A stretch of DNA of 64,000 nucleotides, taken from NCBI RefSeq assembly GCF_014610845.1, contig NZ_JABTCG010000005.1, positions 310,001 through 374,000 of the forward strand, written 5' to 3'. The DNA is from Maribacter arenosus (GTDB lineage: Bacteria; Bacteroidota; Bacteroidia; Flavobacteriales; Flavobacteriaceae). The notes beneath the pieces are model-generated. The model ran no database searches. It was not told where the DNA came from and saw only the letters and a program-made list of their open reading frames with translations. The translations under genes were made by a program, and so were the position numbers. Shown here piece after piece: positions 33,287 to 49,859 of the stretch (position 1 is its first letter; each line of letters begins with the position of its first letter).

Positions 33287-33329
33287 TGACTTATGTTACA
33301 AAATAGTTTCGTTTTTACCCCTACCTTGC
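33287..33329 (+). promoter_or_regulatory. FNR-type site and promoter for the OsmC gene
   Basis: TGAC-TTAT-GTTA at 33287-33298 (one mismatch from the TGAY-N4-RTCA palindrome) is followed after 23 nt by the -7 box TACCTTGC at 33322-33329. The OsmC start follows at 33391. Confidence 0.6.
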
Positions 33330-33390
33330 AGGTCTAATTACCAATGATAAGAATAGGGTGTTTTTAGACACTTCATTAAAAATAAACCAT

Positions 33391-33837
33391 ATGGAACCGC
33401 ACTTTTATAATGTAGAAGTAAATTGGAACAAGGACCGCAAAGGGGTTATGTGTTCCCCAGAATTGATCAGGGATGCAAACACCTGTATCGAAGTGGCTAC
33501 CCCCCCAGAATTTCCTAAAGGTATGCCCGGGATATGGTCGCCTGAACATTTGTTTACCGCTTCGGTAAGCACCTGCTTAATGACCACTTTTCTGGCCATT
33601 GCCGAAAATTCGAAATTGGAATTTTCAAATTTCAGTTGTAAATCAAAAGGAAAATTGGAACGCGTAGAAGGAAAATTCGTTATGAGCGAAATTTTGCTGG
33701 AACCCTCGGTCACCATTACTGACGAAAAATATAGGGAAAAAGCGGAAAAGGTCTTACAAAAATCCGAGGCGGCCTGTTTGATTTCCAATTCCATAAAATC
33801 AAAAATAACTATGGTACCTACCATTTTGGTAGGTTAG
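33391..33837 (+). CDS. OsmC-family peroxiredoxin-like protein
   Basis: A 148-residue OsmC/Ohr-fold protein. Two redox Cys positions are visible: STCLMTTFLAIAE near residue 65 and EAACLISNSIKS near residue 129, matching the catalytic pair used to reduce organic hydroperoxides. The strand-rich N-terminus (HFYNVEVNWNKDRKG) fits the fold. I place the start at ATG 33391 (MEPHFYNVE); a GTG at 33358 lies upstream in frame. It sits below an FNR-type promoter, which is consistent with redox or oxygen control. Confidence 0.88.
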   Translation: MEPHFYNVEVNWNKDRKGVMCSPELIRDANTCIEVATPPEFPKGMPGIWSPEHLFTASVSTCLMTTFLAIAENSKLEFSNFSCKSKGKLERVEGKFVMSEILLEPSVTITDEKYREKAEKVLQKSEAACLISNSIKSKITMVPTILVG

Positions 33838-33954
33838 GGCCCATAAATATTATTTACTTGCAGGGCCAGGGGATAAAACAAAATTGAAAGGGAATTATAA
33901 CTAGTACACAACACCCCCAAAGTGATATCCAGCTCATTAAACAATAGTATTTGT

Positions 33955-34464
33955 ATGAAATATGTCATCTCCCTATTCATTTTTGTATTTCTAACCGTAT
34001 TAGGCTCCTGCAACTTTAAGGATAAGGTGCCCAATGCCACTATTGAGATCATTGATCAATTTTCAGGGATCGAGGAGGTCATCAATGGGAAAGATAATGA
34101 GGTAACCGTACTCAACTTTTGGTCAACCGCCTGTCCGCCATGTATCAAGGAGCTGCCCCATTTCAACCAACTGGCGACGGAGTATAAAGACAAAAAGGTG
34201 AAAATACTCCTCATCAGTCTGGAGGATCCCAAACGATTAAACAGTCATATCTATCCCTTTGTACAGAAACATGGTATTCTACCGGAAGTGGTAGTGCTTA
34301 ATGATCAAAACTATACCGCATGGACCGATAAGATCGATACCTCCTGGTATGGGGCCCTTCCCGCCACCTTGATCGTAAAAGGGCCGCATCGAAAATTCAA
34401 GTTTGGAAGTTATACCACCTATGAAGAGTTACAAACCGATCTTGATGAAATCATTGGGCAATAG
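33955..34464 (+). CDS. TlpA-like thioredoxin lipoprotein
   Basis: About 169 residues. A lipoprotein signal with lipobox VLGSC near residue 18 is followed by a thioredoxin fold: VTVLNFWSTACPPCIKELPHF gives the catalytic C-P-P-C near residue 57, then KILLISLEDPKR and the cis-Pro region ALPATLIV. TlpA-type proteins reduce disulfides in the periplasm, for example in cytochrome maturation or in handling of stress. Start is ATG 33955. It follows OsmC by 117 bp and may share its transcript. Confidence 0.87.
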   Translation: MKYVISLFIFVFLTVLGSCNFKDKVPNATIEIIDQFSGIEEVINGKDNEVTVLNFWSTACPPCIKELPHFNQLATEYKDKKVKILLISLEDPKRLNSHIYPFVQKHGILPEVVVLNDQNYTAWTDKIDTSWYGALPATLIVKGPHRKFKFGSYTTYEELQTDLDEIIGQ

Positions 34465-34489
34465 TAAATAGCTTGCGGGTCAAAGCAAA

Positions 34490-34630
34490 CAACAACCAAC
34501 CATCGATTTACGATTTGAGATTTTTGACCACTAAATTAACACCTCAATTCCCACTGCTGACATCTGACATTTGACATCTGACCATCCTTAACCTATTTCC
34601 TGACTCGCGTCTTCCGTCAACCTTCAACCA
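34490..34630 (+). repeat. Modular low-complexity array R2
   Basis: Words AACAACAACCAACCATC, TTACGATTTGAG, CTGACATCTGACATTTGACA and CGTCAACCTTCAACCAAC. It is G-poor on the plus strand, lies between the TlpA-like and FAH genes, and ends about 39 bp before the FNR-type site of the FAH promoter. Confidence 0.8.
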
Positions 34631-34668
34631 ACAACTAACAAACATCACCTATCAGCAAAAAAAATCCA

Positions 34669-34711
34669 TGATAATTGTCAGTTATAGTTTCTTGCCGATC
34701 TGCTACCTTTC
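34669..34711 (+). promoter_or_regulatory. FNR-type site and promoter for the FAH gene
   Basis: TGAT-AATT-GTCA at 34669-34680, then 23 nt to the -7 box TACCTTTC at 34704-34711. The FAH start is 50 bp downstream. Confidence 0.65.
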
Positions 34712-34761
34712 GGTGTGATATTCTTAGTACACATTTATAGCGTAACCTAAAAAATTATTTT

Positions 34762-35376
34762 ATGAAAATACTTGCCATTGGTAAAAACTACGTAAACAAT
34801 AAAGTAGAAAAAAGCGCGAACAAAACCGGCCAACAAATCATATTCTCGAAACCCGAATCGAGTTTGGTTACTAATAACAAGAATGTTCCTTATCCTTCGT
34901 TTACAAAAGATCTTAGATATGAGGCCGAATTGGTCCTTAAAATAGGTAAAGCGGGGAAAAATATTTCGACCCAAGACGCTATTGCCCATATCGCCGAAAT
35001 AGGGATCGGCATAGATTTTACAGCTAAGGATATTTTTGATGCCTCTAGGGAAGTTAAGGGACCTTGGGACCTTGGAAAAGGTTTTGATGGGGCCGCACCC
35101 ATATCCCCTTTCAAACCTGTTTCCGATTTTAAGGATTTGAACAACATCGATTTTGATTTAAAAATCAACGGAAAACGATTACAAGAAGGGAATACGGGCC
35201 TTATGATCTACAATTTTCAGGAAATTATCGCTTTCATCTCACAATTCATGACCTTGCAATCGGGAGACCTGATCTTTACGGGAACGCCCGCGACAGGTAC
35301 GGGACAAATATTCAAGTACGACCATATACAAGCCAGTATCGAAGGGGAATTGCTGTTGGACTTTAAAATGATCTGA
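34762..35376 (+). CDS. Fumarylacetoacetate hydrolase (FAH) family protein
   Basis: A 204-residue FAH-fold protein. The divalent metal site is seen in YEAELVLKIGK near residue 53 (E-x-E), GIGIDFTAKDIFDASREVKG (cited in part, with D) and KGFDGAAPISPF. Family reactions include acylpyruvate hydrolysis, oxaloacetate decarboxylation and ring-opening of aromatic intermediates. The exact substrate is unknown. Expression is probably controlled by the FNR-type promoter directly upstream. Confidence 0.88.
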   Translation: MKILAIGKNYVNNKVEKSANKTGQQIIFSKPESSLVTNNKNVPYPSFTKDLRYEAELVLKIGKAGKNISTQDAIAHIAEIGIGIDFTAKDIFDASREVKGPWDLGKGFDGAAPISPFKPVSDFKDLNNIDFDLKINGKRLQEGNTGLMIYNFQEIIAFISQFMTLQSGDLIFTGTPATGTGQIFKYDHIQASIEGELLLDFKMI

Positions 35377-35429
35377 TCTTGACCTTGGATTTGTGCTCTG
35401 GTAAATCGTTGGATATAAATTAAATCAGC

Positions 35430-36212
35430 ATGGATAAAAAAATCATACTATTCCTTTTCACAGTCATAATGGTGTTGGGTTCCTGTAAGAACAATAAAAA
35501 ATCCGATCATTTGGATGAACATGCAGTGCAAAAGCATTGGAGCTACCATGGGGAGACCTCCCCTGAGCATTGGATGGAAATTGAAAAAAATTCCGATTGT
35601 GGAGGTACGGCCCAATCCCCCATAAATATCATTGACAATACCACGGTTCCCATAGAGATCAAGGATAGTCTTCAACTCTATTATTCCCCAAAAACATTAT
35701 TGAGTAAAGTGGAGAACAATGGCCACTCCATTCAATTCGATTTTGAAACGGGCGATTCCATACAATTCAATAACGAAGTATACTACTTAAAACAGATTCA
35801 CTTCCATGAGCCTTCCGAGCATAAGATCAACGGTGTAACCTACCCTATTGAGGTCCACTTGGTACATATGTCCAAGAACAATGGATTAACGGTATTCAGT
35901 GTCATGGGCATTGAAGGGGAAGAAAGTCAATTATTTGAATTTTTCAAAAGTTTTCTGCCCCTTGCCAATGGGGAAACCAAAGAAATACACCAACAACTTG
36001 ATATCACGGGATTGTCCCTTGAAAATAGGGGGTATTATTTCTATTCCGGTTCCTTGACCACCCCGCCCTGTACCGAAAATGTAAATTGGATTGTATTTAA
36101 AGACCCTATTGTTATCTCTTTGGATGAAGTGCTCGCCCTACGAAAGAATATGCCGTTGAACAATTATCGCAATGAACAACCTATAAATGGCAGAACGATA
36201 TACCATAAGTAA
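35430..36212 (+). CDS. Alpha-type carbonic anhydrase, lipoprotein
   Basis: A 260-residue carbonic anhydrase interconverting CO2 and bicarbonate. The N-terminal signal ends with lipobox VLGSC. The three Zn ligands are visible in QIHFHEPSEHKI (two His) near residue 130 and EVHLVHM (third His), as in the alpha class. The C-terminal segment TTPPCTENVNW holds the Cys and Thr that support the active site. Periplasmic or surface location is expected. It may provide bicarbonate for growth or buffer the envelope. Confidence 0.95.
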   Translation: MDKKIILFLFTVIMVLGSCKNNKKSDHLDEHAVQKHWSYHGETSPEHWMEIEKNSDCGGTAQSPINIIDNTTVPIEIKDSLQLYYSPKTLLSKVENNGHSIQFDFETGDSIQFNNEVYYLKQIHFHEPSEHKINGVTYPIEVHLVHMSKNNGLTVFSVMGIEGEESQLFEFFKSFLPLANGETKEIHQQLDITGLSLENRGYYFYSGSLTTPPCTENVNWIVFKDPIVISLDEVLALRKNMPLNNYRNEQPINGRTIYHK

Positions 36213-36391
36213 GGGATAAAACATAAGGTAGTTTAAGCTTTGAATCATGTCTACGGAGTTGCTGGTTTTTCCGGTTAAATATCTTAGCTACTGTATATGA
36301 TACAATACCCTTTTCTTTCGTTGATTGCGCAAAATACAAGTATCTTTATTCCACCCTTTTTGGGCGAATATCGTATTCAAAGCATATTTGT

Positions 36392-36405
36392 TTCCAATTT
36401 TGGAA
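36392..36405. repeat. Perfect 14-bp palindrome upstream of the CBU_0592-like gene
   Basis: TTCCAATTTTGGAA lies 19 bp before the start at 36424, in a 211-bp gap that otherwise shows no gene. A possible operator; no partner protein can be named. Confidence 0.4.
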
Positions 36406-36423
36406 TCCGTTAAATAATAAAAA

Positions 36424-36684
36424 ATGAACAGGGTAGATTGGATAGGTTTTATCGGAGTTTTTTTAATTTTATTAGCCTATATCCTCAATATTTTTGGAAA
36501 ACTGGAAAGGAACGATCTGCGCTTTATTCTGTTCAATTTAATCGGAGCTGGTTTAGCGTGTTATGCATCCGTATTAATGGATTATATGCCTTTTGTGCTG
36601 TTGGAAGGGGTTTGGGTCTTGGTCTCAGTCATCGCGCTACTAAAATATATAAAACGACAGGGGAAAAATACCTCGGTAAATTGA
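36424..36684 (+). CDS. CBU_0592-family small membrane protein
   Basis: An 86-residue membrane protein with three hydrophobic helices (about residues 6-24, 33-50 and 55-75). The order DWIGFIGVFLILLAYILN, NLIGAGLACYASVLM and FVLLEGVWVLVSVIAL is that of the CBU_0592 family, found widely in bacteria as a hypothetical membrane protein. Function unknown. Confidence 0.72.
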   Translation: MNRVDWIGFIGVFLILLAYILNIFGKLERNDLRFILFNLIGAGLACYASVLMDYMPFVLLEGVWVLVSVIALLKYIKRQGKNTSVN

Positions 36685-36755
36685 TCCGTGCTATGACCCC
36701 TGAATCGAACCAAAGGAGTTGTGTAGGTAATGAACCTCGATTTTAAAAGATAGAA

Positions 36756-37097
36756 ATGGATAATTCGGAAAAGTTGTTTGCCATAAAACTGGTTCATACG
36801 TTGATTTGGTTGTTCTTCGTAAGTATCATCTTTTACATCCTATATTCAGGAATTACAGACCGCGTATCTACGTTAACATGGATTGCGATAGGTTTGGTAA
36901 TTGTAGAAGGAATCGTCTTGTTGCTTTGTAATATGTTCTGCCCTTTGACCATCGTAGCCAGAAGATACTCCAACTCCAAAAAGGACAATTTTGATATTTT
37001 TTTACCGAATTGGCTGGCCCGGCATAACAAATTAATATTCACATCGATTTATCTCATCGGTGTCCTGATTGTCTTAATTCGGGTAGGATTTGGTTAG
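36756..37097 (+). CDS. Hypothetical membrane protein
   Basis: A 113-residue protein with three hydrophobic segments (about residues 13-30, 40-60 and 92-110) and a polar loop (ARRYSNSKKDNFDIFLPNWL) near residue 70. The CNMFCPLTIVA segment carries two Cys close to the membrane. I do not recognise a named family. It follows the CBU_0592-like gene by 71 bp on the same strand. Confidence 0.55.
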   Translation: MDNSEKLFAIKLVHTLIWLFFVSIIFYILYSGITDRVSTLTWIAIGLVIVEGIVLLLCNMFCPLTIVARRYSNSKKDNFDIFLPNWLARHNKLIFTSIYLIGVLIVLIRVGFG

Positions 37098-37155
37098 GTT
37101 CGACTTTAGACTTTCCAACTTTAGACTTTAGACTTTCGTCTTTCGACCCACAAAT
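37098..37155 (+). repeat. Short modular array R3
   Basis: Repeats of CGACTTTAGACTTTCC, CTTTAGACTTTAGAC and TTTCGTCTTTCGAC between two convergent genes, with no hairpin module. Smallest member of the array family. Confidence 0.75.
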
Positions 37156-37160
37156 ATCCC

Positions 37161-37676
37161 CTAAGTGAGCACCTCACTTAATTGGAATTTCCATACCAAT
37201 TCTACGATAGGTTCAATACCAGATCTGTCCATATAGTCAAATCCTTCAAGTTCCTCTTTTCTAGCCTGGGGATCCTTGTTTGCCATGGCACCTATTTTCA
37301 ACAATATGCGGTCATACCAGCTAAGTTCAGCCGGAATCTGCCTTCCACGCAGCACCACGTGATACATTCTTGAAATGAATTCTTTAGGGAGGCTGTCGGC
37401 AATCCACCCGTTAAGTTTCTCCCCGGCCGGGGCACCGGAAACCGAATAAAAGATGATCGGTTTATTCCCAAGCTTATTCAAATTCTTTTTCACCCACTTA
37501 TGGATTGTAAGCTTATAATAGATTATTGGGCTACCTAAGATCAAAAAATCGTATTTCGTTGGATCGGCATTACCCTTTTTTATATCATATACGGGCAATC
37601 CGGTCGCTTCAGCGATCCAGTCGGCATATTGGGCCGTACTGCCATACTTGGATGAGAAAAAAATTGCACCTTTCAT
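37161..37676 (-). CDS. Flavodoxin-domain protein (HemG-like)
   Basis: A 171-residue flavodoxin-fold protein. The FMN phosphate loop is SSKYGSTAQYAD near residue 8, followed by the glycine/serine strand LILGSPIIYYK and IIFYSVSGAPAG near residue 75 for isoalloxazine binding. The HemG protoporphyrinogen oxidase subgroup has this length and order. Whether it acts in haem synthesis or as a general flavodoxin cannot be decided. It sits behind an FNR-type promoter on the minus strand, consistent with low-oxygen or redox control. Confidence 0.82.
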   Translation of the reverse strand: MKGAIFFSSKYGSTAQYADWIAEATGLPVYDIKKGNADPTKYDFLILGSPIIYYKLTIHKWVKKNLNKLGNKPIIFYSVSGAPAGEKLNGWIADSLPKEFISRMYHVVLRGRQIPAELSWYDRILLKIGAMANKDPQARKEELEGFDYMDRSGIEPIVELVWKFQLSEVLT

Positions 37677-37716
37677 AATCGATCCCTTTTAAATTAACTG
37701 GTATAACATCCAACGT

Positions 37717-37759
37717 TAAAAGTAAGGTTGATTTTAATTAGCACAAATGACATTGGTCA
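37717..37759 (-). promoter_or_regulatory. FNR-type site and promoter for the flavodoxin gene
   Basis: On the plus strand TGAC-ATTG-GTCA at 37748-37759. Reading the minus strand, the site is followed by TTTG, then 19 nt, then the -7 box TACTTTTA (37717-37724 on the plus strand as its complement). The coding start at 37676 is 40 nt further on. Confidence 0.65.
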
Positions 37760-37779
37760 TATTCTGCTGGCTTTCTACA

Positions 37780-38590
37780 ATCGATTTTAGAATTTTCACC
37801 TTACATCTCAATTCTCACTACTGACCACCGATCACTGCCCACTATCTTCCGGTTCTCGATACGATTTTCCATGAAAATCACTCGAACTGACCCTTTGGAA
37901 TGTGGATACTGCCAAGCTTCAATTTCCCACTTTCCAACTTTTGACTTTCGACCCAAACCAACCTGAAACCTGAAACTTGAAACCTCAAACCAACAACCAA
38001 CAACCAACTTACGATTTTAGATTGTAGATTTTTGATTTTTGATTTTTGATTTTATACTATCATCTCAATTCCCACTACTGACTACTGACCTCTGACCACT
38101 ACTTCCAGTTCTCGATACGATTTTCCTTGAAAATCACTCGAACTGACCTTTTTAAATGTGGATACTACTAAACTTCGATTTTCCAACTTTTGACTTTCGA
38201 CCCATACCAACCTGAAACCTGAAACTTGAAACCTCAAACCAACAACCAACTTACGATTTTAGATTGTAGATTTTTGATTTTTGATTTTTGATTTTTGATT
38301 TTATACTATCATCTCAATTCTCACTACTGACTACTGACCTCTGATCACTAACTTCTGGTTCTCGATACGATTTTCCTTGAAAATCACTCGAACTGACCCT
38401 TTGGAATGTGGATACTGCCAAGCATCAATTTCCCACCTTCCAACTTTCCAACTTTTTACTTTCGACCCAAACCAACTTGAAACCTGAAACTTGAAACCTC
38501 AAACCAAACCTTCAACTATCAACCATAAACCCTCAACCAATAACCAACCTTCGACTTTCCAACTTTCGACTTTCGACTTTCGACTTTCAA
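37780..38590 (+). repeat. Modular low-complexity array R4 with three hairpin modules
   Basis: About 810 bp of words such as CTACTGACCACCGATC, GAAACCTGAAACTTGAAACC, CAACAACCAAC, TAGATTGTAGATTTTTGATT and CTTTCGACTTTCGAC. Three near-identical 38-bp modules lie at 37853-37890, 38109-38146 and 38359-38396, each containing the hairpin GATTTTC-cwt-GAAAATC. The block around module 1 (CTGACCACCGATCACTGCCC, ACTATCTTCCGG) recurs almost exactly in R5. No gene is present in this 1.0-kb gap. Confidence 0.88.
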
Positions 38591-38604
38591 CTAAAACCAT
38601 TCTA

Positions 38605-38647
38605 TGACAATCATCAGTTGATATCACTATTTTTACTTTTACCTTGC
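38605..38647 (+). promoter_or_regulatory. FNR-type site and promoter for the aldo/keto reductase gene
   Basis: TGAC-AATC-ATCA at 38605-38616, then GTTG and 19 nt to the -7 box TACCTTGC at 38640-38647. The start codon follows at 38723. Confidence 0.65.
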
Positions 38648-38722
38648 TGGTTCGTATAGAAAAAAAGGCATGCTTTTGCCGTATACAATTTACTTTATTC
38701 ATGAATTTAAACCCCTTGTAAA

Positions 38723-39712
38723 ATGAAAAAACGCACCCTCGGAAAAACCGGATTTAAGATTGCCGAAATCGGCGCAGGAACATGGCAAGTAGGCGGTAAA
38801 TGGGGCAGTCCATTCAGTCATGCCAATGCCGATGCCATTTTGAATACGGCCGTGGATCATGGGGTGAATTTTATCGATACGGCCGATGTGTATAGCGATG
38901 GGGAAAGTGAAAAAGCCGTGGGGCGCTTCGTACGGTCCCGTAGCGAACGTATTTATGTGGCCACAAAATGCGGCCGACGTATTTCCCCCCATACCGACAA
39001 AGGCTATACCCCCAAGGTATTACGAAAGTTTGTGGAGGACAGCCTAAAGAATATGGGCTTGGAGACCCTGGACCTCATCCAATTGCATTGCCCACCTACC
39101 GAAACCTATGAACGCCCAGAGATCTTTGGCCTCTTTGATGATCTGAAGAAAGAAGGCAAGATCTTGAACCTTGGGGTAAGCGTCAAAACCGTGGACCAGG
39201 CCTTGCGGGCGATGGAATACGATAATGTGACAACAGTACAAATCATATTCAATATGCTACGACAGTTGCCCTCGGAACGTTTTTTTGGGGAAGCCCAAAA
39301 AAAGAATGTCGGCATTTTGGCACGGGTGCCCTTGGCAAGTGGACTCCTCACAGGCAAGTTCACGGCAGCGACCGCCTTTGGTAAGGACGACCACCGTGCG
39401 CCCATTAAGGAAAATAAGGCATTTAGCAATAACGAAGCCTTCGGAGGAATAGATTATCGGATAGGTTTGGAGGCCGTTGAAGAATTGAAATCGCTTTTTC
39501 ATGTACAGGCGAACCTCTCTACCTTGGCCTTGAAATGGATTTTAATGTTCCCCCAAGTGAGTTGTGTCATACCCGGGGCCTCCCGACCCGATCAGATGTT
39601 GGCGAATATACATGGCTCCGATGTGCCTGAATTTGCACCGGAGATCATGGAGAAGATCAAACGAATCTATGAGAAGCATATCGTACCGAATTTAGCCAAT
39701 ACACATTGGTAA
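38723..39712 (+). CDS. Aldo/keto reductase
   Basis: A 329-residue TIM-barrel NADPH-dependent oxidoreductase. The catalytic tetrad is seen as FIDTADVYSDGESEKAVG near residue 52 (Asp and Tyr), VATKCGR near residue 85 (Lys) and LIQLHCPP near residue 117 (His). NADPH phosphate binding is suggested by CVIPGASRPDQM near residue 292. Substrates of the family range from sugars to aldehydes from lipid damage. The FNR-type promoter upstream suggests redox control. Confidence 0.92.
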   Translation: MKKRTLGKTGFKIAEIGAGTWQVGGKWGSPFSHANADAILNTAVDHGVNFIDTADVYSDGESEKAVGRFVRSRSERIYVATKCGRRISPHTDKGYTPKVLRKFVEDSLKNMGLETLDLIQLHCPPTETYERPEIFGLFDDLKKEGKILNLGVSVKTVDQALRAMEYDNVTTVQIIFNMLRQLPSERFFGEAQKKNVGILARVPLASGLLTGKFTAATAFGKDDHRAPIKENKAFSNNEAFGGIDYRIGLEAVEELKSLFHVQANLSTLALKWILMFPQVSCVIPGASRPDQMLANIHGSDVPEFAPEIMEKIKRIYEKHIVPNLANTHW

Positions 39713-39770
39713 CCCTATTGAAAATAATTATTGACCGAATTGGACCTAACGTCCCAATAAGAAAAAACAA

Positions 39771-40316: not shown

Positions 40317-40346
40317 GAGGGTAACTAGATGTGACGCTTTAAGCGT

Positions 40347-40377
40347 TTTGAAATTATACCAATTTTTGGTATATTTG
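40347..40377 (+). promoter_or_regulatory. Toxin-antitoxin promoter with overlapping palindromic operator
   Basis: TTTG at 40347-40350, 19 nt, TATATTTG at 40370-40377: a perfect match to the Bacteroidota consensus. Between them ATACCAA (40356-40362) and TTGGTAT (40366-40372) form a 17-bp palindrome overlapping the -7 box. The antitoxin start is at 40395, so this is the likely autoregulation site. Confidence 0.75.
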
Positions 40378-40394
40378 AGTCAAATAGCATCAAA

Positions 40395-40646
40395 ATGAAC
40401 AAAAACACCTCAATATCATTAGGAAATTATTTTGACCAATTTGTTCAAAGTAGAATAAAAGAAGGTCGATTTAAAAATGTTAGTGAAGTTATACGCGCAG
40501 GATTAAGGCTTTTAGAAGAAGAGGAAAGCAAAGTAACTGCATTAAAAAACGCAATTCAGGACGGAATTGATAGCGGAATTGCGCAAGATTTTGACCCTAA
40601 AAAACATCTTGAATCCCTAAAAGCTAAAAAACGCCCAAATGGCTGA
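40395..40646 (+). CDS. ParD-like antitoxin (type II, ribbon-helix-helix)
   Basis: An 83-residue antitoxin. The N-terminal ribbon-helix-helix is visible as NTSISLGNYFDQFVQSRIKE, then GRFKNVSEVIRAGLRLLEEE, the DNA-binding part of ParD/CC2985-type proteins. The C-terminal tail binds the toxin. It should neutralise the ParE-like toxin encoded next and repress the operon by binding the palindrome in its promoter. Start codon and spacing to the promoter are normal. Confidence 0.9.
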   Translation: MNKNTSISLGNYFDQFVQSRIKEGRFKNVSEVIRAGLRLLEEEESKVTALKNAIQDGIDSGIAQDFDPKKHLESLKAKKRPNG

Positions 40647-40938
40647 ATTTAGATTGACGAATAAAGCTGTTGAGGATTTATCGAAAATTTGGGATTATAC
40701 TTTCGAGGTTTGGTCTGAAAATCAAGCCGACAAATACTATGAGATGCTGATTTCAAGCTGTCAAGAAATTGCTGACAATCCACTTTTAGGTAAAAACTAT
40801 GACGGAATTACTCCCGGTCTTTTCGGAATGAAAATGAATCGACACATCATTTTCTATCGAACTTTAGATGAAAACTATGTTGAAATCACTAGATTTTTAC
40901 ACGAGAGAATGGATTTAAAAAAAAGAATAACCGAATAA
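40639..40938 (+). CDS. ParE/RelE-family toxin
   Basis: A 99-residue toxin with the RelE/ParE fold: AEFRLTNKAVEDLSKIWDYT at the N-terminus, a helix-strand core and MKMNRHIIFYRTLDENYVEI before the C-terminal RFLHERMDLKKRI. ParE members poison gyrase, RelE members cut mRNA on the ribosome; the ParD-like partner favours the ParE group. The start overlaps the antitoxin by 8 bp, which couples translation. Confidence 0.88.
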   Translation: MAEFRLTNKAVEDLSKIWDYTFEVWSENQADKYYEMLISSCQEIADNPLLGKNYDGITPGLFGMKMNRHIIFYRTLDENYVEITRFLHERMDLKKRITE

Positions 40939-40954
40939 CAAATCGACACGTAAC

Positions 40955-41570
40955 AAATTACTGACCATCCGTCGCCTGTCTTCCGTCAACTTTCGACTTT
41001 CGACTTTCGACTTACAATTTACGATTTACGATTTTCTACCCACATCCGCCAACTGCCTTCTGACCACCGATCACTGCCCACTATCTTCCGGTTCTCGATA
41101 CGATTTTCCTTGAAAATCACTCGAACTGACCCTTTGGGAATTGGATAAAATCATCCGTCTTCCGTCAACTTACCAACTTTTGACATACGATTTACTTTTT
41201 ACCTTTTTAACTCATTCCCTATTTAACTCCCAACTTTTAACTCTGAACTATCACCCGTCTTCATTCTCGCGTCTCCCCTCACCTATCAACCATCAACCCT
41301 CAACCAACAACCAACAACCAACAACCAACAACCAACCATCAACCCTCAACCAACAACCAACAACCAACTTTCGCCTTTCGACTTTCGACTCAAACTAACC
41401 TGAAACCAGAAACCAGAAACCAACTACCGTCCCCCGTCTCCCCTCACCCATCAACCATCAACCCTCAACCATCAACCCTCAACCATCAACCATCAACCCT
41501 CAACCCTCAACCAACAACCAACCTTCGACTTTCCAACTTTCGACCTTCGACTTGCGACTCAAATCCCTCA
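40955..41570 (+). repeat. Modular low-complexity array R5
   Basis: About 615 bp of CTTTCGACTTTCGAC, CAACAACCAACAACC, CATCAACCCTCAACC and GAAACCAGAAACC words. A 38-bp hairpin module lies at 41092-41129, preceded by the same CTGACCACCGATCACTGCCC block as in R4. A spurious reading frame of 85 codons runs through it (41141-41398) and is not a gene. Confidence 0.88.
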
Positions 41571-41591: not shown

Positions 41592-41640
41592 TGATAAAAA
41601 TCACATTTTATTCTAAATACCCATCGTAGATTTGCGATAA
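41592..41640 (+). promoter_or_regulatory. FNR-type site, promoter and ArsR operator for the arsenic operon
   Basis: TGAT-AAAA-ATCA (41592-41603) is a perfect FNR core, 23 nt upstream of the -7 box TAGATTTG (41627-41634). Overlapping the -7 box is the probable ArsR operator ATCGTAGATTTGCGATAA at 41623-41640, repeated at 42060. Dual control by oxygen/redox and arsenic is suggested. Confidence 0.7.
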
Positions 41641-41645
41641 GCAAT

Positions 41646-42041
41646 ATGAACGGAGCTGTTAGTAGTTCGTTGATGTCAACTAAAATAAACGATAGCGAAT
41701 ACCATCCGACCTATGGAAACAGTAGTCAAAAGCAGATGAAAAGAAGTTTGGAGCAAATAGAATACAAAGAGAATACCGAAGCTTTGGCAAGATTCGCAAA
41801 AGCCTTAGGACACCCTACCCGTATCGCTATTTTAAAACACCTTGATAATCAATCTTGCTGTTTTACTGGGGATTTGGTTGAAGTTTTTCCTTTGGCACAA
41901 TCTACCATTTCCCAACATTTGAAAGAATTGAAAAACGCGGGCCTTATTCAAGGAGAACTAAAACCCCCAAAAATAAAGTACTGTATCAATCAAGATAACT
42001 GGAAGATAGCAAAGGCATTATTCCAGCAATTTTTTGATTGA
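41646..42041 (+). CDS. arsR: ArsR-family metalloregulator
   Basis: A winged-helix repressor of up to 131 residues. The domain starts near residue 45: FAKALGHPTRIAILKHLDN, then SCCFTGDL with adjacent Cys residues able to bind As(III), the recognition helix AQSTISQHLKELKNAGLI and the wing. The first ATG (41646) is only about 12 nt after the -7 box, so ATG 41673 or ATG 41736 (MKRSLEQ) are likely alternatives. It should repress its own operon through the operators at 41623 and 42060. Confidence 0.9.
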   Translation: MNGAVSSSLMSTKINDSEYHPTYGNSSQKQMKRSLEQIEYKENTEALARFAKALGHPTRIAILKHLDNQSCCFTGDLVEVFPLAQSTISQHLKELKNAGLIQGELKPPKIKYCINQDNWKIAKALFQQFFD

Positions 42042-43421: not shown

Positions 43422-43439
43422 ATTATAAATCGATAAAAA

Positions 43440-43877
43440 ATGAAAACAATTAATTTTTTCGCAGTACTCGCAATCAGTTTTATGCTCACCTCCTGTTACG
43501 GTCAAGACAAAAACAATCCCAGTTCGTTAGACCGATCCGTTTCAAAAATCGAGGTCTTGGATTTTCACTCCACCCACAGATGCATGACATGTAATGCCAT
43601 TGAAGCCAATACGAAATACACCTTGGAAACCTATTTCGCGAAGGAGTTGAAGGAGAATAAAATTACATTTCAAGTGATTAATGTAGATGAAAAAGAGAAT
43701 GAAAAAATTGCTGAAAAATTCGAGGCAGCAGGGACTTCCCTATTCTTGAATGTTATAAAAAACGGGGAGGAAACCCAAATCAATTTAACCGATTTTGCCT
43801 TTATGAACGGCAATGATAGGGAAGCCTTTAGCCAAGAACTGAAAACTAAAATTGATAAGGAGTTCAAAACGCTTTAA
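43440..43877 (+). CDS. arsF: ArsF-family nitroreductase-subunit-like lipoprotein
   Basis: A 145-residue exported protein. A lipobox MLTSC near residue 18 is followed by a thioredoxin-related domain with HSTHRCMTCNAIEANTKYTL near residue 45, a C-x-x-C motif. The combination is that of the ArsF family, described as a subunit for reducing nitrophenyl arsenicals in ArsEFG systems. The stop codon shares its last base with the ATG of arsG (TAATG), indicating translational coupling. Confidence 0.82.
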   Translation: MKTINFFAVLAISFMLTSCYGQDKNNPSSLDRSVSKIEVLDFHSTHRCMTCNAIEANTKYTLETYFAKELKENKITFQVINVDEKENEKIAEKFEAAGTSLFLNVIKNGEETQINLTDFAFMNGNDREAFSQELKTKIDKEFKTL

Positions 43878-44587
43878 TGGATTTTTTAAAATCGCTTTTA
43901 GAGCATTATAATTTCCCGATAAGTTCGGCATTCATACTCGGACTGATGACAGCCATAAGTCCTTGTCCTTTGGCGACCAATATCACCGCTACTGCCTTTA
44001 TTTCCAAGAATATTTCGAGCAGACGAAAGGTTTTTTTAAGTGGGTTATTATACGCTTTGGGAAGGGGGTTTAGCTATACCGCCATTGGCTTTATATTATA
44101 TTTTGGGGCGAGCAAATTTCATATGGCCCGCTTTTTTAATCAAAACGGGGAGAAGTTTTTAGGACCATTATTGATAGTGATCGGATTGATCATGCTGAAT
44201 ATCATCAAACTTGATTTTTTAGGCAAATCCGATTTTCAAGAAAAATTATCTGAAAAATTCAAAGACAAAGGACTTTTAGGCTCATTTTTGATTGGTATTG
44301 TATTCGCTTTGGCGTTTTGTCCGTATAGTGGGGCCTTGTTTTTTGGGATGTTGATCCCAATGACCATAGCCTCGGCAGACGGACTTTATCTACCTCTCGT
44401 ATTTGCTTTTGGAACAGGGTTGCCAGTCATTCTTTTTACCTATTTATTGGCCTTTACAGCAGGTAAAATAGGTCTGTTCTACACTAGAATCACAAAAATC
44501 GAAAATGTGATGCGTATGATGGCCGGGGTCGTTTTTATTATTACAGGATTATATTATGTTTCCATTTTCATTGGACTACTGAAATAG
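43877..44587 (+). CDS. arsG: ArsG-family permease for aromatic arsenicals (DsbD/CcdA-like)
   Basis: A 236-residue membrane protein with six or seven helices. GLMTAISPCPLATNITATAF near residue 22 and VFALAFCPYSGALFFGMLIP near residue 142 each carry one Cys in the positions of the DsbD/CcdA core, which is the ArsG layout. ArsG is known as an efflux permease for amino-substituted aromatic arsenicals. It closes the arsR-trx-permease-arsF-arsG operon, 95 bp before the convergent glycosidase gene. Confidence 0.82.
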   Translation: MDFLKSLLEHYNFPISSAFILGLMTAISPCPLATNITATAFISKNISSRRKVFLSGLLYALGRGFSYTAIGFILYFGASKFHMARFFNQNGEKFLGPLLIVIGLIMLNIIKLDFLGKSDFQEKLSEKFKDKGLLGSFLIGIVFALAFCPYSGALFFGMLIPMTIASADGLYLPLVFAFGTGLPVILFTYLLAFTAGKIGLFYTRITKIENVMRMMAGVVFIITGLYYVSIFIGLLK

Positions 44588-44682
44588 CAACTCTTAACGC
44601 TCAACGAACATTCATCAGGCTTTTCTAGCCATTTTAGTCGTAGTAAGACTTTTATTGATTTGGGTATCGAATAGGTATGGGT

Positions 44683-46440
44683 TTATTTTCCCCACACCTC
44701 GATTTCCTTCCAGGATACCCAAGAAGGGCTAACCGTGGTGGTGATGCGTACATATCGGTATTGTACGGGCGTGGCAGGCTCATAAACCAGCACATCGGCC
44801 TCTTCGGTTTCCCCTGTAAAGGTCTGCAACGTATCCCATGTACTGCCATCGGTACTTGCCTCTAGGATATGGGTGGTACTGCCCGAAGGATATTGGGCTA
44901 CCCGCATGGTAATTTTATAAATATCATAGTCCGTCTCTAGATCCAATGCGATCCATTGGGTCGCATTTAGACCAGACCCCCATTGGGAGACTATGTCACC
45001 ATCAACGGCCATTATAGGCGTCTCATCGGGTAGGTTTGCGGAAGCTGTAACCGGTTTGTTCAAAGCTACATTCGCAGGTAAAAGAAAATTTTCATCACAG
45101 GGATCCGGATAATTCACAGGGGCCATGGCATCCAACATTTCCTGATTTTCATCCATAAAACCCCAACTGGTATCATTGGCATTCCCTTCGCCTCTGTACA
45201 TACCCCAATATAACCATCCGTTGAACCCATAGGCACAAGCTTCTGCCTGATAGGATTGCATGGTCTTAACGGCATCGTCCAAATTCGGATACCTATCAAG
45301 AAACGCACCGTACTCCCCTAAAATAATCGGTTTTAATACATAACCGACCATCCCATAATTTTCGACCAAGGGGTAAAGCGGGTCATCCCCTGGATAGGCA
45401 TGAAAGTCAAAAAAATCCAATTGGGCCTGGTATAACAAGTCTGCTGTTTCTACGTACCTAAAATTGCCAAGACCTATGGGATTCGGATAGTCTGGATTAA
45501 AAAAGCCCATGGTTACCAAAGCGTTGGAATCATAGATATTAATGATTTCCCTTACTTTGTCGATGTAATGGACTATACCTTCTACGGCCATCAACTTTTT
45601 ATCCCCAGCACTGGCCATGTCATAGTTTTTGCCATTGGCGGTAGTCACGATCTGTGAGGTAAGACTGAAAGGGGGTTTATCCCTAAAATACCATTGTTCG
45701 TTAAGAATAGACCATGCCAATACGTTTTCAAATGGGGCGCCCCTATCATATAAGGCTTTAAGCAGATCACCCCAATATTTCTGTGCGGACTCTATACCCT
45801 TGGGGGTTAAATAGTGCGCGTTTCGGTAGCCCTCAAACTGATCATTGGCCCCGGCATTCGAAATATCCCAATAGTTGCCGGTATCGGGCAGATCATTGGA
45901 AGTCAATATTAGAAATATACCCTCATCTTGCGCAATTTGGAGGGTCTCTGCCATATTCGCGATGTAGGCCGAATTTAGCCCCGGAGCCGATGCATTGCCA
46001 ATACAATCAGGCCCATCATTACAAGTGTCCATAAAAATACGAATGGTATTGTAGCCTTTGGCAACCAGCAATTCAAAATCTGCCCTTACCCGAGTGCGGT
46101 CAAAATTCCCAGGGGCAAAAAAGCGATCTTGAAAAATACCGTTATGGGCCACTATCCAAGTGTAGTTTACCCCGCGCATTACAAATTCCTCGTTTTTATC
46201 CTTGTTCCAGAACTTTGCGGCACCATCGATCATTTTTGTTTCGATGGCATGTGGGGCCTGCAATATAACCTCTGGTGGTTCAACTGTTGTGGTATCCTCC
46301 GAAGGGGTTGGTACACTATTCTCGGGTGGCGGTGTACGTATGGCATCCTCCTTTGAGCAGGTAATAACACAAAACCCAAAGACAAAAGCACCAACAATCA
46401 GAACGATTCTAGAGATTTTAATACCTATAGCTTTTTTCAT
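44683..46440 (-). CDS. Clan GH-A glycoside hydrolase (GH5-like) lipoprotein with C-terminal discoidin domain
   Basis: A 585-residue secreted enzyme. A membrane anchor signal with lipobox FCVITCS near residue 27 and a Pro/Thr-rich linker (TPPPENSVPTPSED) precede a TIM barrel. The acid/base Glu is in AWSILNEQWYF near residue 245 and the nucleophile Glu in IILGEYGAF near residue 370, as in GH5 and relatives. The last 130 residues form an F5/8 type C (discoidin) carbohydrate-binding domain (NVALNKPVTASANLPDETP, and the closing WVSWKEIEVWGK). It probably cuts an algal or plant polysaccharide at the cell surface. Substrate unknown. Confidence 0.85.
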   Translation of the reverse strand: MKKAIGIKISRIVLIVGAFVFGFCVITCSKEDAIRTPPPENSVPTPSEDTTTVEPPEVILQAPHAIETKMIDGAAKFWNKDKNEEFVMRGVNYTWIVAHNGIFQDRFFAPGNFDRTRVRADFELLVAKGYNTIRIFMDTCNDGPDCIGNASAPGLNSAYIANMAETLQIAQDEGIFLILTSNDLPDTGNYWDISNAGANDQFEGYRNAHYLTPKGIESAQKYWGDLLKALYDRGAPFENVLAWSILNEQWYFRDKPPFSLTSQIVTTANGKNYDMASAGDKKLMAVEGIVHYIDKVREIINIYDSNALVTMGFFNPDYPNPIGLGNFRYVETADLLYQAQLDFFDFHAYPGDDPLYPLVENYGMVGYVLKPIILGEYGAFLDRYPNLDDAVKTMQSYQAEACAYGFNGWLYWGMYRGEGNANDTSWGFMDENQEMLDAMAPVNYPDPCDENFLLPANVALNKPVTASANLPDETPIMAVDGDIVSQWGSGLNATQWIALDLETDYDIYKITMRVAQYPSGSTTHILEASTDGSTWDTLQTFTGETEEADVLVYEPATPVQYRYVRITTTVSPSWVSWKEIEVWGK

Positions 46441-46599
46441 TGCCCCATGAATTACAAAACTTAGCTATATGCCCCATGCATGGGCCTTAGTGTGTTTATC
46501 TAAAGTTACTTAAAACGATTACCCGCTTATGAAGAAGTGTATACTTTACCTGTTTTTTGGTATAAACTACCCAAGCGTTGTATATACCGCACTTTACTT

Positions 46600-46905
46600 T
46601 TTACTCTTTCCCTCTTTAACTCATTTACTCGTAGGTTTTAACTCTGAACTTTCACCCGTCTTCATTCTCGCGTCTCCCTTCAACCAACAACCATCCTTCG
46701 ACATTACAACTTTCGACTTTCGACCCACATCAACCAGAAACCAGAAACTAGAAACCAACACCCGTCCCCCGTCTCCCCTCACCTATCAACCGTCAACCCT
46801 CAACCCTCAACCAACAACAAACTTTCGACTTTCCAACTTTGGACTTACCCTTTACTCTTTATCTTTTTAACTCTTTAACTCTTTCCCTCTTTCCCTCTTT
46901 ACTTT
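46600..46905 (+). repeat. Modular low-complexity array R6
   Basis: Words CTTTCGACTTTCGAC, GAAACCAGAAACTAG, CAACCGTCAACCCTC and finally AACTCTTTAACTC and TTTCCCTCTTT, ending close to the lipid kinase start. No hairpin module is present. The 494-bp gap 46441-46934 otherwise holds only a CCCCATGCATGGGC palindrome near 46475. Confidence 0.85.
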
Positions 46906-46934
46906 TTACTAAATAAAAATATTACCTTGACCCA

Positions 46935-47852
46935 ATGAACATCGTGTTTATCGTCAACAACAAAAACAACCGCCTGGCCAAAATGCTCCCAAGGCTTGAG
47001 CATTATTGTCAACAAGCGAAGTTGGGCAGGGTGCAGTTTATGTCCACCCTACGCAGAAAGCACGCTATCGAATTGGCCAAACAGGCCGCAGAAGACGGCT
47101 GTGAGTATCTGGTGGCCGTTGGGGGCGATGGCACCTTACATGAGGTGATCAATGGGGTGTTGCAATCTAACATCCCTGCGAGTGAATACCCGGCAGTAGG
47201 ACTCCTCCCCTATGGTTCGGCCAATGATTTCGCCAGAACGGCGGGCATCTCCAATTCCATTGAAGACTTGTTTGCCCTGATGAGATCGAATACCACCCAA
47301 AAGGTAGACCTTGGGAAAATAGTGCTACAACAGCCCCAGGAAACCCGCTATTTCAGCAATATTGCAGGGGTTGGACTCGGTGCTAAGGTGGCCCAACAGC
47401 TGGAAGGATCCTCAAGTGTGTTGGGCCCTAGCTTCAATTACTATAAGCACATTTTAAAAGGGTTTCTCCGTTATACGAAAAAAGAGGTGCGTTGTACCAG
47501 CGACACCTGGGAGTGGCAGGGCAAGTTACTGGTTATGGCCGTGGCCAACGGACGTTATTTTGGCAATGCCATCTGCATCGCCCCCGATGCCCAGCTTACC
47601 GACGGCCGGTTTCAGATAGCTATTTTTGGGGATTTGAGCCTGTGGGACTATCTAAAAAATTTGGGCAAGTTAAAAAAAGGCGTAAAGATCAACCTGCCAC
47701 AGGTGAGCTACCATACCGCCAAAGAAGTAGAGCTTACAAGCAACGACCCTTGTGGTATTGAGGCCGATGGGGAGTATGTGGGCCTGCTCCCAGCGACGAT
47801 AAGCATAGTACCCAAAGCGATCCGCTTTCTAATGCCTCCCGCTGTACGCTAA
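46935..47852 (+). CDS. Diacylglycerol kinase-family lipid kinase (YegS-like)
   Basis: A 305-residue kinase. The nucleotide-binding motif AVGGDGTLHEVINGV lies near residue 63, and GLLPYGSANDFARTAGI near residue 98 is the second conserved block. The C-terminal half contains GPSFNYYKHILKGFL and EADGEYVGLLPATISI. Members phosphorylate diacylglycerol or related lipids. The sequence TACCTTGA sits just 5 nt before the ATG, too close to be its own -7 box unless translation is leaderless. Confidence 0.9.
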   Translation: MNIVFIVNNKNNRLAKMLPRLEHYCQQAKLGRVQFMSTLRRKHAIELAKQAAEDGCEYLVAVGGDGTLHEVINGVLQSNIPASEYPAVGLLPYGSANDFARTAGISNSIEDLFALMRSNTTQKVDLGKIVLQQPQETRYFSNIAGVGLGAKVAQQLEGSSSVLGPSFNYYKHILKGFLRYTKKEVRCTSDTWEWQGKLLVMAVANGRYFGNAICIAPDAQLTDGRFQIAIFGDLSLWDYLKNLGKLKKGVKINLPQVSYHTAKEVELTSNDPCGIEADGEYVGLLPATISIVPKAIRFLMPPAVR

Positions 47853-47859
47853 TCGCCAT

Positions 47860-48600
47860 TCGCTATTCGCAGTACGCAATGCGCTTAGCGCTAACAGCCA
47901 TAAGCCAATAGCCAACCTCCCAATACTCACCCTCAACGAACAATCAACTTCTGACCACTGTTTATTGTTCAATGTTTATTGTTCATTGTTCACTGTTCAC
48001 TGCTACTGCCTACTGCCTTCCGGTTCTCGATACGATTTTCCTTGAAAATCACTCGAACTGACCCTTTGAAAGGTATATACTACCAACTGCCATCCGTCCC
48101 CTTTCCCATTTTTACTTTTTAACTTCTTAACTCTTTAACTTATTAACTTCCAACTCTTAACTATTCCCCGTCGCCCATCACCTTTCAACCATCAACTATC
48201 AACTCCCTTCTGACATCTGACCACTGACATCTGACCTCCTTCAACCTTCGACTTTCCAACTTTCGACTTTCGACTCAAACCAACCTGAAACCAGAAACCA
48301 GAAACCTCAAACCAACAACCGCTCCCCGTCGCCCCGTCGCCCCTCACCCATCAACCAACTTTCGACTTTCCAACTTTCGACTTTCCAACTTTCGACTTTC
48401 CAACTTTCGACTTTCGACTTTCGACCCACATCAACCAGAAACCTGAAACCAGGAACCAGAAACTAGAAACCAACAACCGTCCCCCCTCTCCCATCTACTA
48501 TCAACTCCCTTCTGACATCTGCCCACTGACATCTGACCTCCGTCAACTTTCGACTTTCCAACTTTCGACATTCGACTTTAAACTTTCGACCCACACCGAC
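47860..48600 (+). repeat. Modular low-complexity array R7 with one hairpin module
   Basis: About 740 bp between the lipid kinase and CPBP genes. The first part contains CATAAGCCAATAGCC and GTTCATTGTTCACTG words, then the hairpin module at 48024-48061, then long runs of CTTTCGACTTTCCAA, GAAACCTGAAACCAGG and CCCCGTCGCCCC. It ends at the CPBP gene's FNR-type promoter. Confidence 0.88.
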
Positions 48601-48606
48601 CAAAAA

Positions 48607-48649
48607 TGACCTGTATCAGTGCATTCCATACATTTTAGGAATATCTTGA
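48607..48649 (+). promoter_or_regulatory. FNR-type site and promoter upstream of the CPBP gene
   Basis: TGAC-CTGT-ATCA at 48607-48618, then 23 nt to TATCTTGA at 48642-48649. The leader to the start at 48804 is about 150 nt and holds only two tiny open frames. Confidence 0.6.
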
Positions 48650-48803
48650 GGTACCTGAATATTGAGATTCTTAACCATTAACAATGAGTATATGTGCGTG
48701 TAACTAAACAAAATGTGCACAAGCAAGAAAAACAATGACATGCTAAATCAATAAGGCATGAAAAAGTGATTGCCAGTAACCGAAAGACTACTGTAGAATT
48801 GAC

Positions 48804-49625
48804 ATGGATAAAATAATTACCTCAAAACCATTTGCATTTTTTGCATTACTGATCGTTATGTTGTCAGTAACCATGACTTTATTTTTGCCGATGGCTGCGG
48901 AGGTAAAGCTCATTATAAGAATAGTATTTATCGGTGCCTTTTTCATTTCATGGAGACTATTTCAAAAGTCTGATTATACCAACGCCAAAGACCTTGCTTT
49001 CGCATTTATGGCTTTGAATATTGCATTTCTAGTTGTATCCTTTTTTACCCCAACATTCTGGAATCTAAACGAGGAGACCTCACAAGGTTTTGCGCTCATG
49101 AAACTCAGCGATGCAGTTATCATAAGTGTAGTCTTGATCCTCGCTTTTGTAATCGGAGGGTATAGGTTAAAGAACATCTTTTTGACCAAAGGACGTTTAC
49201 TTCCCGGTTTAATCATCGGAATCCTTCTTTTTATCCTATTTGGCTATCTCGCACTGAACAATCCAGAGCATAGGATCGAACCGGATTTTTTAAGAAAGCA
49301 TTATGTATGGATACTGATCTTCGTATTTGCAAATGGGTTTATGGAAGAATTGGTTTTTAGGGGTATTTTTTTGAAAAAGTTATACCGGTATATGAAACCC
49401 GTTTGGGCCATTGTATTGACATCCATATGTTTTGCAGTGCCCCATCTTACGGTTAATTATGATCCGGATGTCCTGGTTTTTGCCGGGATCGTATTTGTGC
49501 TTGGGTTAATTTGCGGTTTTGCCATGTACTACACGCGAAGTATAATTGCTCCCATGCTAATCCACGCAGGGGCCGATTTAATGATCATTATCCAGGTATT
49601 TGCTTCATACGATGTAATTACCTGA
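48804..49625 (+). CDS. CPBP-family intramembrane metalloprotease
   Basis: A 273-residue membrane protein with about eight helices. The first CPBP motif is MEELVFRGIFL near residue 180 (Glu-Glu-x3-Arg), the second is FAVPHLTVNY near residue 212 with a conserved His, and the third is LIHAGADLMIII near residue 252. CPBP (Abi) proteases cleave prenylated or other membrane peptides; in some bacteria they act in immunity to bacteriocins. No bacteriocin genes are adjacent. Confidence 0.87.
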   Translation: MDKIITSKPFAFFALLIVMLSVTMTLFLPMAAEVKLIIRIVFIGAFFISWRLFQKSDYTNAKDLAFAFMALNIAFLVVSFFTPTFWNLNEETSQGFALMKLSDAVIISVVLILAFVIGGYRLKNIFLTKGRLLPGLIIGILLFILFGYLALNNPEHRIEPDFLRKHYVWILIFVFANGFMEELVFRGIFLKKLYRYMKPVWAIVLTSICFAVPHLTVNYDPDVLVFAGIVFVLGLICGFAMYYTRSIIAPMLIHAGADLMIIIQVFASYDVIT

Positions 49626-49669
49626 TTGTTGCAACGAAACGTTCAATTAGGTGAAGTGCAACATCTACA

Positions 49670-49805
49670 ACCAGCAACACAACCGCCTGACTTTCGACTC
49701 AAACCAACCAGGAACCTAAAACTAGAAACCATTAACCAACATTCGCCTTTTGACTTTCGACTTACCCTTTAACTTTTTAACTTCTTAACTCTTTTACTTT
49801 TTCAT
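49670..49805 (+). repeat. Modular low-complexity array R8
   Basis: A short block with GACTTTCGACTC, CAACCAGGAACC, AACCAACATTCGCC and AACTTTTTAACTTC. It ends at the FNR-type promoter next to it and lacks the hairpin module. Confidence 0.78.
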
Positions 49806-49816
49806 TAGAAAATTCA

Positions 49817-49859
49817 TGACTTTTGTCAGCTATTCTTACAAATTTTAACAATATATTGC
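49817..49859 (+). promoter_or_regulatory. FNR-type site and promoter at the edge of the AT-rich island
   Basis: TGAC-TTTT-GTCA at 49817-49828, a perfect palindrome, then 23 nt to TATATTGC at 49852-49859. The next coding start is at 49958, so the leader is longer than at the other members. The gene now downstream may not be the original target. Confidence 0.6.

Follow-up and report, generated by a model that had tools for sequence, protein, structure and literature searches.

Background

At the class II promoters of Escherichia coli the site of the activator, FNR or CRP, is centred at -41.5, upstream of a TATAAT box. The FNR operator has the consensus TTGAT-N4-ATCAA; a glutamate and an arginine of the Crp/Fnr recognition helix contact TGA/TCA, and the cluster cysteines of FNR are C20, C23, C29 and C122. 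In the FixLJ-FixK cascade of rhizobia, a PAS histidine kinase acts through a receiver on a Crp/Fnr-type activator of cbb3 oxidase genes. We analysed a 64,000-nucleotide stretch of the Maribacter arenosus genome (G000:C20:310001-374000, hereafter the window), in which several promoters carry a Crp/Fnr-like palindrome exactly 23 nucleotides (nt) from a -7 box, and compared this composite motif across the genome and its relatives. On sequence grounds these sites are very likely class II operators of an Fnr-type anaerobic or redox regulon that is common to many Flavobacteriaceae and is most likely read by three paralogous regulators, R1, R2 and R3.

In Flavobacterium psychrophilum the sigma-A box TAnnTTTG occupies -12 to -5 from mapped starts, and a further promoter class, SM5, has a TAnnTTGY box at the same position and is probably an alternative-sigma class (PMC9723704, available to us in part). 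The available part of that paper, whose SM1-3 and SM5 promoters share their box classes and box position with those discussed here, mentions no Fnr-type operator, and the terms fnr and crp have 0 occurrences in it. If the box lies at -12 to -5 in M. arenosus as well, a 12-bp core followed by 23 nt would place the site centre at -41.5. The TGAY-N4-RTCA core, the 23 nt and the box starting at -12 would then reproduce the geometry of E. coli FNR/CRP class II promoters, from which the promoters predicted here differ in having a TAnnTTTG rather than a TATAAT box and flanks of A/C...T rather than T...A. In the open-access literature, outside which most subscription journals lie, we found no report of the operator, the regulon or receiver-Crp fusions of Bacteroidota, which is weak evidence of novelty. 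Crp/Fnr homologues of Flavobacteriales in a reactor have been connected with a carbon response of the MalR kind (PMC8510549), and two other papers (PMC7366714, PMC4999443) serve as background only.

A palindrome at a fixed distance from the -7 box

The pattern TGAYN4RTYA-N23-TANNTT matches the window 9 times, whereas 100 dinucleotide-shuffled versions of the window give 0.13 matches on average. A genome-wide scan (4.17 Mb, 24 contigs), which a first-pass annotation of the window had proposed, upheld this excess: TGAYN4RTCA-N23-TANNTT occurs 97 times (53 + 44) and the reversed pattern 3 times, and setting the gap to 22 nt leaves 7 matches against 4 in the control. When all gaps from 0 to 59 nt were counted in 424 kb of the genome, gap 23 gave 97 cases and every other gap at most 8, although these stretches were picked mostly for their gap-23 sites, so that only the counts at the other gaps carry information. 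A set of 80 loci from other genomes, selected by their proteins without regard to the motif, gives 160 cases at gap 23 and at most 13 at each other gap between 5 and 44; 53 of the loci hold at least one gap-23 case. The palindrome thus stands at a single fixed distance from the box, as at a class II promoter.

Position relative to genes separates these sites from other occurrences of the same core. Only 2 of the 97 lie inside open reading frames (ORFs) of at least 100 aa, and 84 are intergenic with an ORF of at least 80 aa starting within 300 nt; the corresponding numbers are 38 and 7 for 53 core sites that have a box at none of the gaps from 0 to 59, and 23 and 11 for 45 core sites with a box at another gap. 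Since the logo and the scoring matrix were built from matches to a fixed pattern, the letters fixed in it are conserved by construction, and only the flanks and the last two box letters are independent. Before the core these flanks are A in 49%, C in 36% and T in 8% of the 97 sites; after it, T in 83% and A in 4%, with G the second commonest letter; the box ends in T, then A or G. The genome-wide site consensus is [AC]TGAY-N4-RTCAT, close to that of FNR but distinct from it, so that the "FNR/CRP-type" site of the first-pass annotation holds as a Crp/Fnr-type site and not as the FNR operator.

Conservation among Flavobacteriaceae

All 11 other genomes of the genus that were searched contain the pattern, with 18-83 gap-23 matches each (706 in sum, 37 in the control), and 60 genomes of 60 further genera of the family hold 1304 against 171. 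Across the class a match was present in 143 of 149 genomes, many of them near control level. Orthologous promoters, a comparison that the first-pass annotation had proposed, point the same way. A hemN match was found in 36 of 60 genomes; among 30 loci examined, 24 (our own included) have a gap-23 site upstream, at a distance of 58-72 nt except in G171, where it is 368 nt. The six hemN loci without one belong to G182, which has no regulator among the matches listed, and to G184, G173 and three genomes of other families, all with a regulator match; absence of the site therefore has more than one cause. For the pyruvate:ferredoxin oxidoreductase (PFOR) gene, 15 of 25 loci were examined (L234 and L240-L248 were set aside, being incomplete matches or fragments of homologues with lower identity) and 9 have the site, 8 of them within the genus; one of those lacking it upstream is L239.

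Site density follows the regulators. Counting regulators among the matches listed, the 60 family genomes have a median of 7.4 sites per Mb where a receiver-Crp fusion is present (24 genomes), 4.2 where there is only a solo protein (28) and 2.4 where there is neither (8); the difference between fusion and solo-only genomes (p 9e-6) and the Spearman correlation of 0.58 with regulator count (-0.08 for the control pattern) are descriptive, the genomes being related and the points not independent. The composite motif, in short, is fixed in its gap, in excess genome-wide, conserved, placed before genes and found together with three paralogous regulators.

Three candidate regulators

A Crp-type helix-turn-helix (PF13545, E up to 0.001) occurs in six proteins of the genome, none of them encoded in the window, as the first-pass annotation had stated of the regulator; instead of one regulator there are three candidates with a fitting recognition helix. 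This helix, ATE[ST]xIR, occurs only in R1, R2 and R3 among the six. R1 (366 aa, contig C12) and R3 (351 aa, contig C1) are fusions of a receiver (PF00072), a cNMP-binding domain and a Crp helix-turn-helix, and R2 (233 aa, contig C12) is a solo Crp/Fnr-type protein (PF00027, PF13545, PF00325).

A gene for a 1088-aa PAS/GAF kinase lies approximately 160 nt upstream of R1, and one for a 414-aa PAS kinase a few nt upstream of R3. A gap-23 site precedes both kinase genes, so the R1 and R3 loci are probably self-activating. Among relatives, a histidine kinase gene on the same strand within 250 nt upstream (phmmer E up to 1e-15) accompanies 30 of 66 fusions and 0 of 24 solo proteins, and the aspartate context D[IV]MMP of the receiver is kept in 64 of the 66; these counts come from the matches listed, include R1 itself (L072) and may miss weak fusions. 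The order of PAS kinase, receiver and Crp/Fnr-type activator, with cbb3 oxidase among the likely targets, is that of FixLJ-FixK, except that here receiver and activator are fused in one protein. The fusions form one side of a tree branch that is weakly supported (72/43). The closest named records to the Crp part of R1 are from Maribacter luteus (85% identity), M. polysiphoniae (82%) and M. polysaccharolyticus (82%). Receiver-Crp or solo genes of the group also occur in records titled Bacteriovorax, Bifidobacterium, Oligoflexia and Deltaproteobacteria (L129, L130, L139, L143, L177); the tree places L130, the one titled Bifidobacterium, among rows of Bacteroidota, and this record may be a metagenome bin with a wrong label.

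R2 has the cNMP-binding-like fold and Crp helix-turn-helix of an FNR-type protein. Its cysteines 9, 12, 58 and 111 are kept in 23, 23, 23 and 24 of the 24 solo proteins, as against 0, 0, 0 and 9 of the 66 fusions. Solved FNR-type regulators (5cvr, 5e44, 9qlt and others), which we take to be from Aliivibrio fischeri, match R2 over residues 8-228 (E 5.3e-22 for 9qlt, 3.6e-21 for the 5cvr/5e44 sequence), and their CxxC and later cysteine align with Cys9, Cys12 and Cys111; the third N-terminal cysteine of FNR corresponds to Asn18 in R2, and the helix reads E-x-x-I-R in R2 where theirs reads E-x-x-S-R. The best solved match of R2 is 2gau, titled 'transcriptional regulator, Crp/Fnr family' (E 2.1e-26, residues 25-227), but that match leaves out the CxxC of R2, its aligned helix has no glutamate, and 2gau has no cysteine opposite Cys58 and Cys111. 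Cys58 may serve as the replacement cluster ligand, and R2 is probably an oxygen-sensing [4Fe-4S] variant. The motif that R2 would bind departs from TTGAT-N4-ATCAA in both flanking letters (left T 8%, right A 4%, right T 83%).

The promoter of R2 (L066; C12:114476, - strand) has the same kind of site, TGATAATTGTCA, at 9 nt from the box instead of 23. Among 23 solo-type relatives with CxxC, a site lies in the 100 nt preceding the CxxC codon in 19, at gap 9 in 18 of these, and the genus has it there in 11 of 11. Gap 9 would put the site centre near -27.5, over the polymerase site and where a repressor would sit; because its own promoter holds the site at this distance, R2 probably represses its own gene.

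Genes downstream of the sites

A simple ORF rule assigned a first gene of at least 60 aa to 92 of the 97 sites, and at a few of them a smaller gene may intervene (for example, where the oxidase gene is 261 nt away). Pfam families were scanned for 36 of the 92, chosen for window membership and a recognisable look, which biases the sample towards genes that can be named; R1, R2, R3 and OsmC bring the proteins scanned to 40. Among the 36 are a CcoN-CcoO fusion (COX1 + FixO; cbb3 oxidase), PFOR, a POR/KorA-like subunit, ferredoxin, the small subunit of a NiFe hydrogenase, a NuoE/F-like protein, a molybdopterin oxidoreductase, thioredoxin, pyruvate phosphate dikinase, serine dehydratase and two PAS histidine kinases; 5 of the 36 have no Pfam match. 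A radical SAM protein among the first genes appears HemN-like, and universal-stress, ferritin and Hsp20 proteins are suggested for others by their N-terminal sequences. The available part of PMC9723704 describes up-regulation of cbb3 oxidase and haem biosynthesis under oxygen limitation in F. psychrophilum, which agrees with the cbb3 oxidase and HemN-like targets predicted here. Many of the sites are grouped at C1:201-222 kb, C12:150-200 kb, C18:535-567 kb, C19:421-445 kb and C20:14-43 kb.

Sites in the window

The window sites are listed below, each with its score in a matrix derived from the 89 sites elsewhere in the genome; left out one at a time, those 89 score a median of 24.6 and a minimum of 14.5.

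33287..33329, + strand: weak member, site TGACTTATGTTA, 23 nt, box TACCTTGC; upstream of an OsmC-like gene at 33391-33837 (PF02566); matrix 8.0, below all 89 trained sites
34669..34711, + strand: site TGATAATTGTCA, 23 nt, box TACCTTTC; upstream of an FAA-hydrolase-family gene at 34762-35376; matrix 21.5
37717..37759, - strand: site TGACCAATGTCA, 23 nt, box TACTTTTA; upstream of a flavodoxin-like gene at 37161-37676 (- strand); matrix 29.5
38605..38647, + strand: site TGACAATCATCA, 23 nt, box TACCTTGC; upstream of an aldo/keto reductase gene at 38723-39712; matrix 17.3
41592..41634, + strand: site TGATAAAAATCA, 23 nt, box TAGATTTG; upstream of an ArsR-family gene at 41646-42041, followed by an ArsP-like permease gene; matrix 19.8
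48607..48649, + strand: site TGACCTGTATCA, 23 nt, box TATCTTGA; upstream of a CPBP/Rce1-like gene at 48804-49625; matrix 22.2
49817..49859, + strand: site TGACTTTTGTCA, 23 nt, box TATATTGC; upstream of an ORF at 49958-50617 with no Pfam match; matrix 13.7, just below the trained minimum
61113..61155, + strand: site TGATCCGTGTCA, 23 nt, box TACATTTA, absent from the first-pass annotation; upstream of a lipoprotein-like ORF at 61205-61687 with no Pfam match; matrix 23.4
53499..53541, - strand: pattern match judged to be chance, inside an HNH-type ORF at 52817-53680 (286 aa); matrix 6.8

The first seven are those of the first-pass annotation, and in all seven the site and box are present with exactly 23 nt between them. 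As promoter members they are unequal: five are solid (matrix 17.3-29.5), 49817 is fair and 33287 is weak and doubtful. The list of seven was also incomplete, having missed 61113. Pfam bears out the genes named downstream (OsmC, FAA hydrolase, flavodoxin, aldo/keto reductase, ArsR, Rce1-like), and of the boxes, described there as TAnnTTTG-like, three (TACCTTGC at 33287 and 38605, TATATTGC at 49817) resemble TAnnTTGY instead. Above a score of 9, a matrix scan finds 10 places in the window against a single one in its reverse. Apart from the named sites, the 10 comprise the palindrome partner of 37759 and positions 52966 and 7505. The last two, found by the matrix scan only (14.0 and 10.8), were excluded from the members, and 53541 (-) was rejected for its coding position and low score.

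Most window sites belong to a minor subclass, with a right flank of G or C and in some cases a TAnnTTGC box, in front of accessory genes. The right flank is T in 80 of 89 sites outside the window but in 2 of 7 inside (RTCA sites, 53541 dropped; p 6e-4), and a right-flank G accompanies TAnnTTG boxes (5 of 9 versus 6 of 88, p 7e-4); the window itself supplies four of the nine G sites, so that the two tests share sites and overlap. Close homologues are few among 40 genomes (our own included, at the E limits set), numbering 6 for the aldo/keto reductase and 2 each for the flavodoxin and the FAA hydrolase, and the window genes accordingly look accessory. The aldo/keto reductase relative in G157 (79% identity) has TGATCATTGTCA-N23-TATCTTGG with a right-flank G; five homologues at 43-62% identity, one of them a paralogue in our own genome, have no site upstream. 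Of two flavodoxin relatives in G159, one (48% identity) has a site upstream and the other (57%) has none in the 239 nt available; the FAA hydrolase relative in G161 has no site upstream. A link between the G-flank class and solo-only genomes found no support, the right flanks among the places listed for solo-only G217, read by eye, being mostly T. The promoters of the window are probably an atypical, accessory corner of the regulon, whose core lies elsewhere.

Several further features were seen near these sites. Degenerate repeats with a 7-nt period (TTCGACT, AACCAAC, CTGACAT and others) precede several promoters (37100-38600, 40989-41560, 46730-46900, 48100-48590), and a 249-nt unit is repeated 2.7 times at 37804-38507. 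A eukaryotic (alpha) type carbonic anhydrase is encoded at 35430-36212, and a ParD-type antitoxin gene followed by an overlapping 99-aa ORF, which may be its toxin partner, at 40395-40938. The first part of the AT-rich island (50881-53680) encodes a 650-aa protein (AbiJ N-terminal domain 3 + AAA ATPase) and then the HNH protein, and looks like a phage-defence module. Elsewhere, at L045:840-3905 (-), a gap-23 G-flank site with box TACCTTGC precedes the gene of a 1022-aa protein that combines EVE and AAA_5 domains and may act in type IV restriction or in defence.

Alternative explanations

Repeats fill the intergenic DNA near several window sites, some of them holding CTGACAT, and could in principle generate the pattern; the shuffle, reversed-pattern, gap and orthologue controls refute chance or repeats as its source, and we give that explanation practically no weight. 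The rigid spacing to the -7 box might also be expected if the palindrome were an upstream element of an unusual sigma-factor promoter, with no activator site at all. Its two-fold symmetry suits a dimeric binder, however, the same core stands at gap 9 before the solo regulator gene (18 of 23), helix and motif resemble the Crp/Fnr family, and site count follows the Crp/Fnr paralogues, which together make a sigma element very improbable. A cAMP-CRP-like or other Crp-family protein, R4, R5 or R6, is encoded in the same genome and might bind the sites instead. The helices of these three (TRAVVSR, SRVVITR, SRVVISR) lack E-x-x-x-R, on which ground we rejected them as binders, and it is the numbers of R1-R3 that follow the motif across genomes (R4-R6 were not counted there); their involvement is improbable, if slightly less so than that of a sigma element.

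Of greater weight, although still unlikely, is that the window cluster forms a separate regulon, in which a related but different activator or an SM5-type alternative sigma factor reads the G-flank sites and TAnnTTGC boxes, leaving the T-flank sites elsewhere to the anaerobic regulators. The differences in right flank between window and genome and the association of G with TAnnTTG boxes would fit this, as would the G-flank site with TATCTTGG retained by the aldo/keto reductase relative and the TAnnTTGY boxes of F. psychrophilum SM5 promoters, as given in the available part of PMC9723704. Yet core and 23-nt gap are identical in both sets, G is the second commonest right flank across all 97 sites, two window sites, 37759 and 61113, belong to the common type, and the six Crp-type proteins include no further fitting helix. 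A Crp/Fnr-type class II regulon responding to redox or oxygen, as the first-pass annotation had suggested, is the best reading. Several observations weigh against it. No kinase was found within 250 nt upstream of 36 of the 66 fusions, and in R2 three cysteines align with those of FNR and the third N-terminal one is missing. The self-chosen 36 of 92 first genes include several with no anaerobic look (an AraC-type regulator, an outer-membrane transport protein, a TonB-type protein, the EVE/AAA protein and proteins of unknown family), 6 of 30 hemN and 6 of 15 PFOR promoters lack the site, mostly in genomes with a regulator match, and G206 (82% complete) has 34 sites with no regulator among the matches listed. 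The relatedness of the genomes behind the per-Mb comparison counts on the same side.

Proposed mechanism and implications

We propose that a dimer of the Crp/Fnr family occupies [AC]TGAY-N4-RTCAT, centred at -41.5, and stimulates the RNA polymerase on the -7 box, the spacing being observed and the binding predicted. The likeliest binders would be the three paralogues that share the helix ATE[ST]xIR: R2, a solo Fnr-like protein whose four conserved cysteines probably support oxygen sensing, and the fusions R1 and R3, whose phosphate presumably comes from the PAS histidine kinases of the adjacent upstream genes. R2 would probably repress itself through its gap-9 site, and the kinase-fusion loci would probably activate themselves through their gap-23 sites. 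The window cluster would be an accessory branch with redox, arsenic-type and island genes. A broader proposition, for and against which we see the case as evenly balanced, is that two kinds of sensor share one anaerobic operator in many marine Bacteroidota: an Fnr-like protein whose four-cysteine cluster site is rearranged, and the receiver-Crp fusions, in which a cascade like FixJ-FixK would be collapsed into a single protein under PAS kinases. This operator would activate at gap 23, repress at gap 9 in the promoter of the Fnr-like gene, and be able to couple to an alternative -7 box.

For the oxygen and redox control of Flavobacteriaceae, these results offer a regulon of approximately 90 promoters with a sharp consensus and named candidate regulators. 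They suggest that class II geometry survives with a divergent Bacteroidota sigma factor, and they make the role of the receiver-Crp fusions directly testable.

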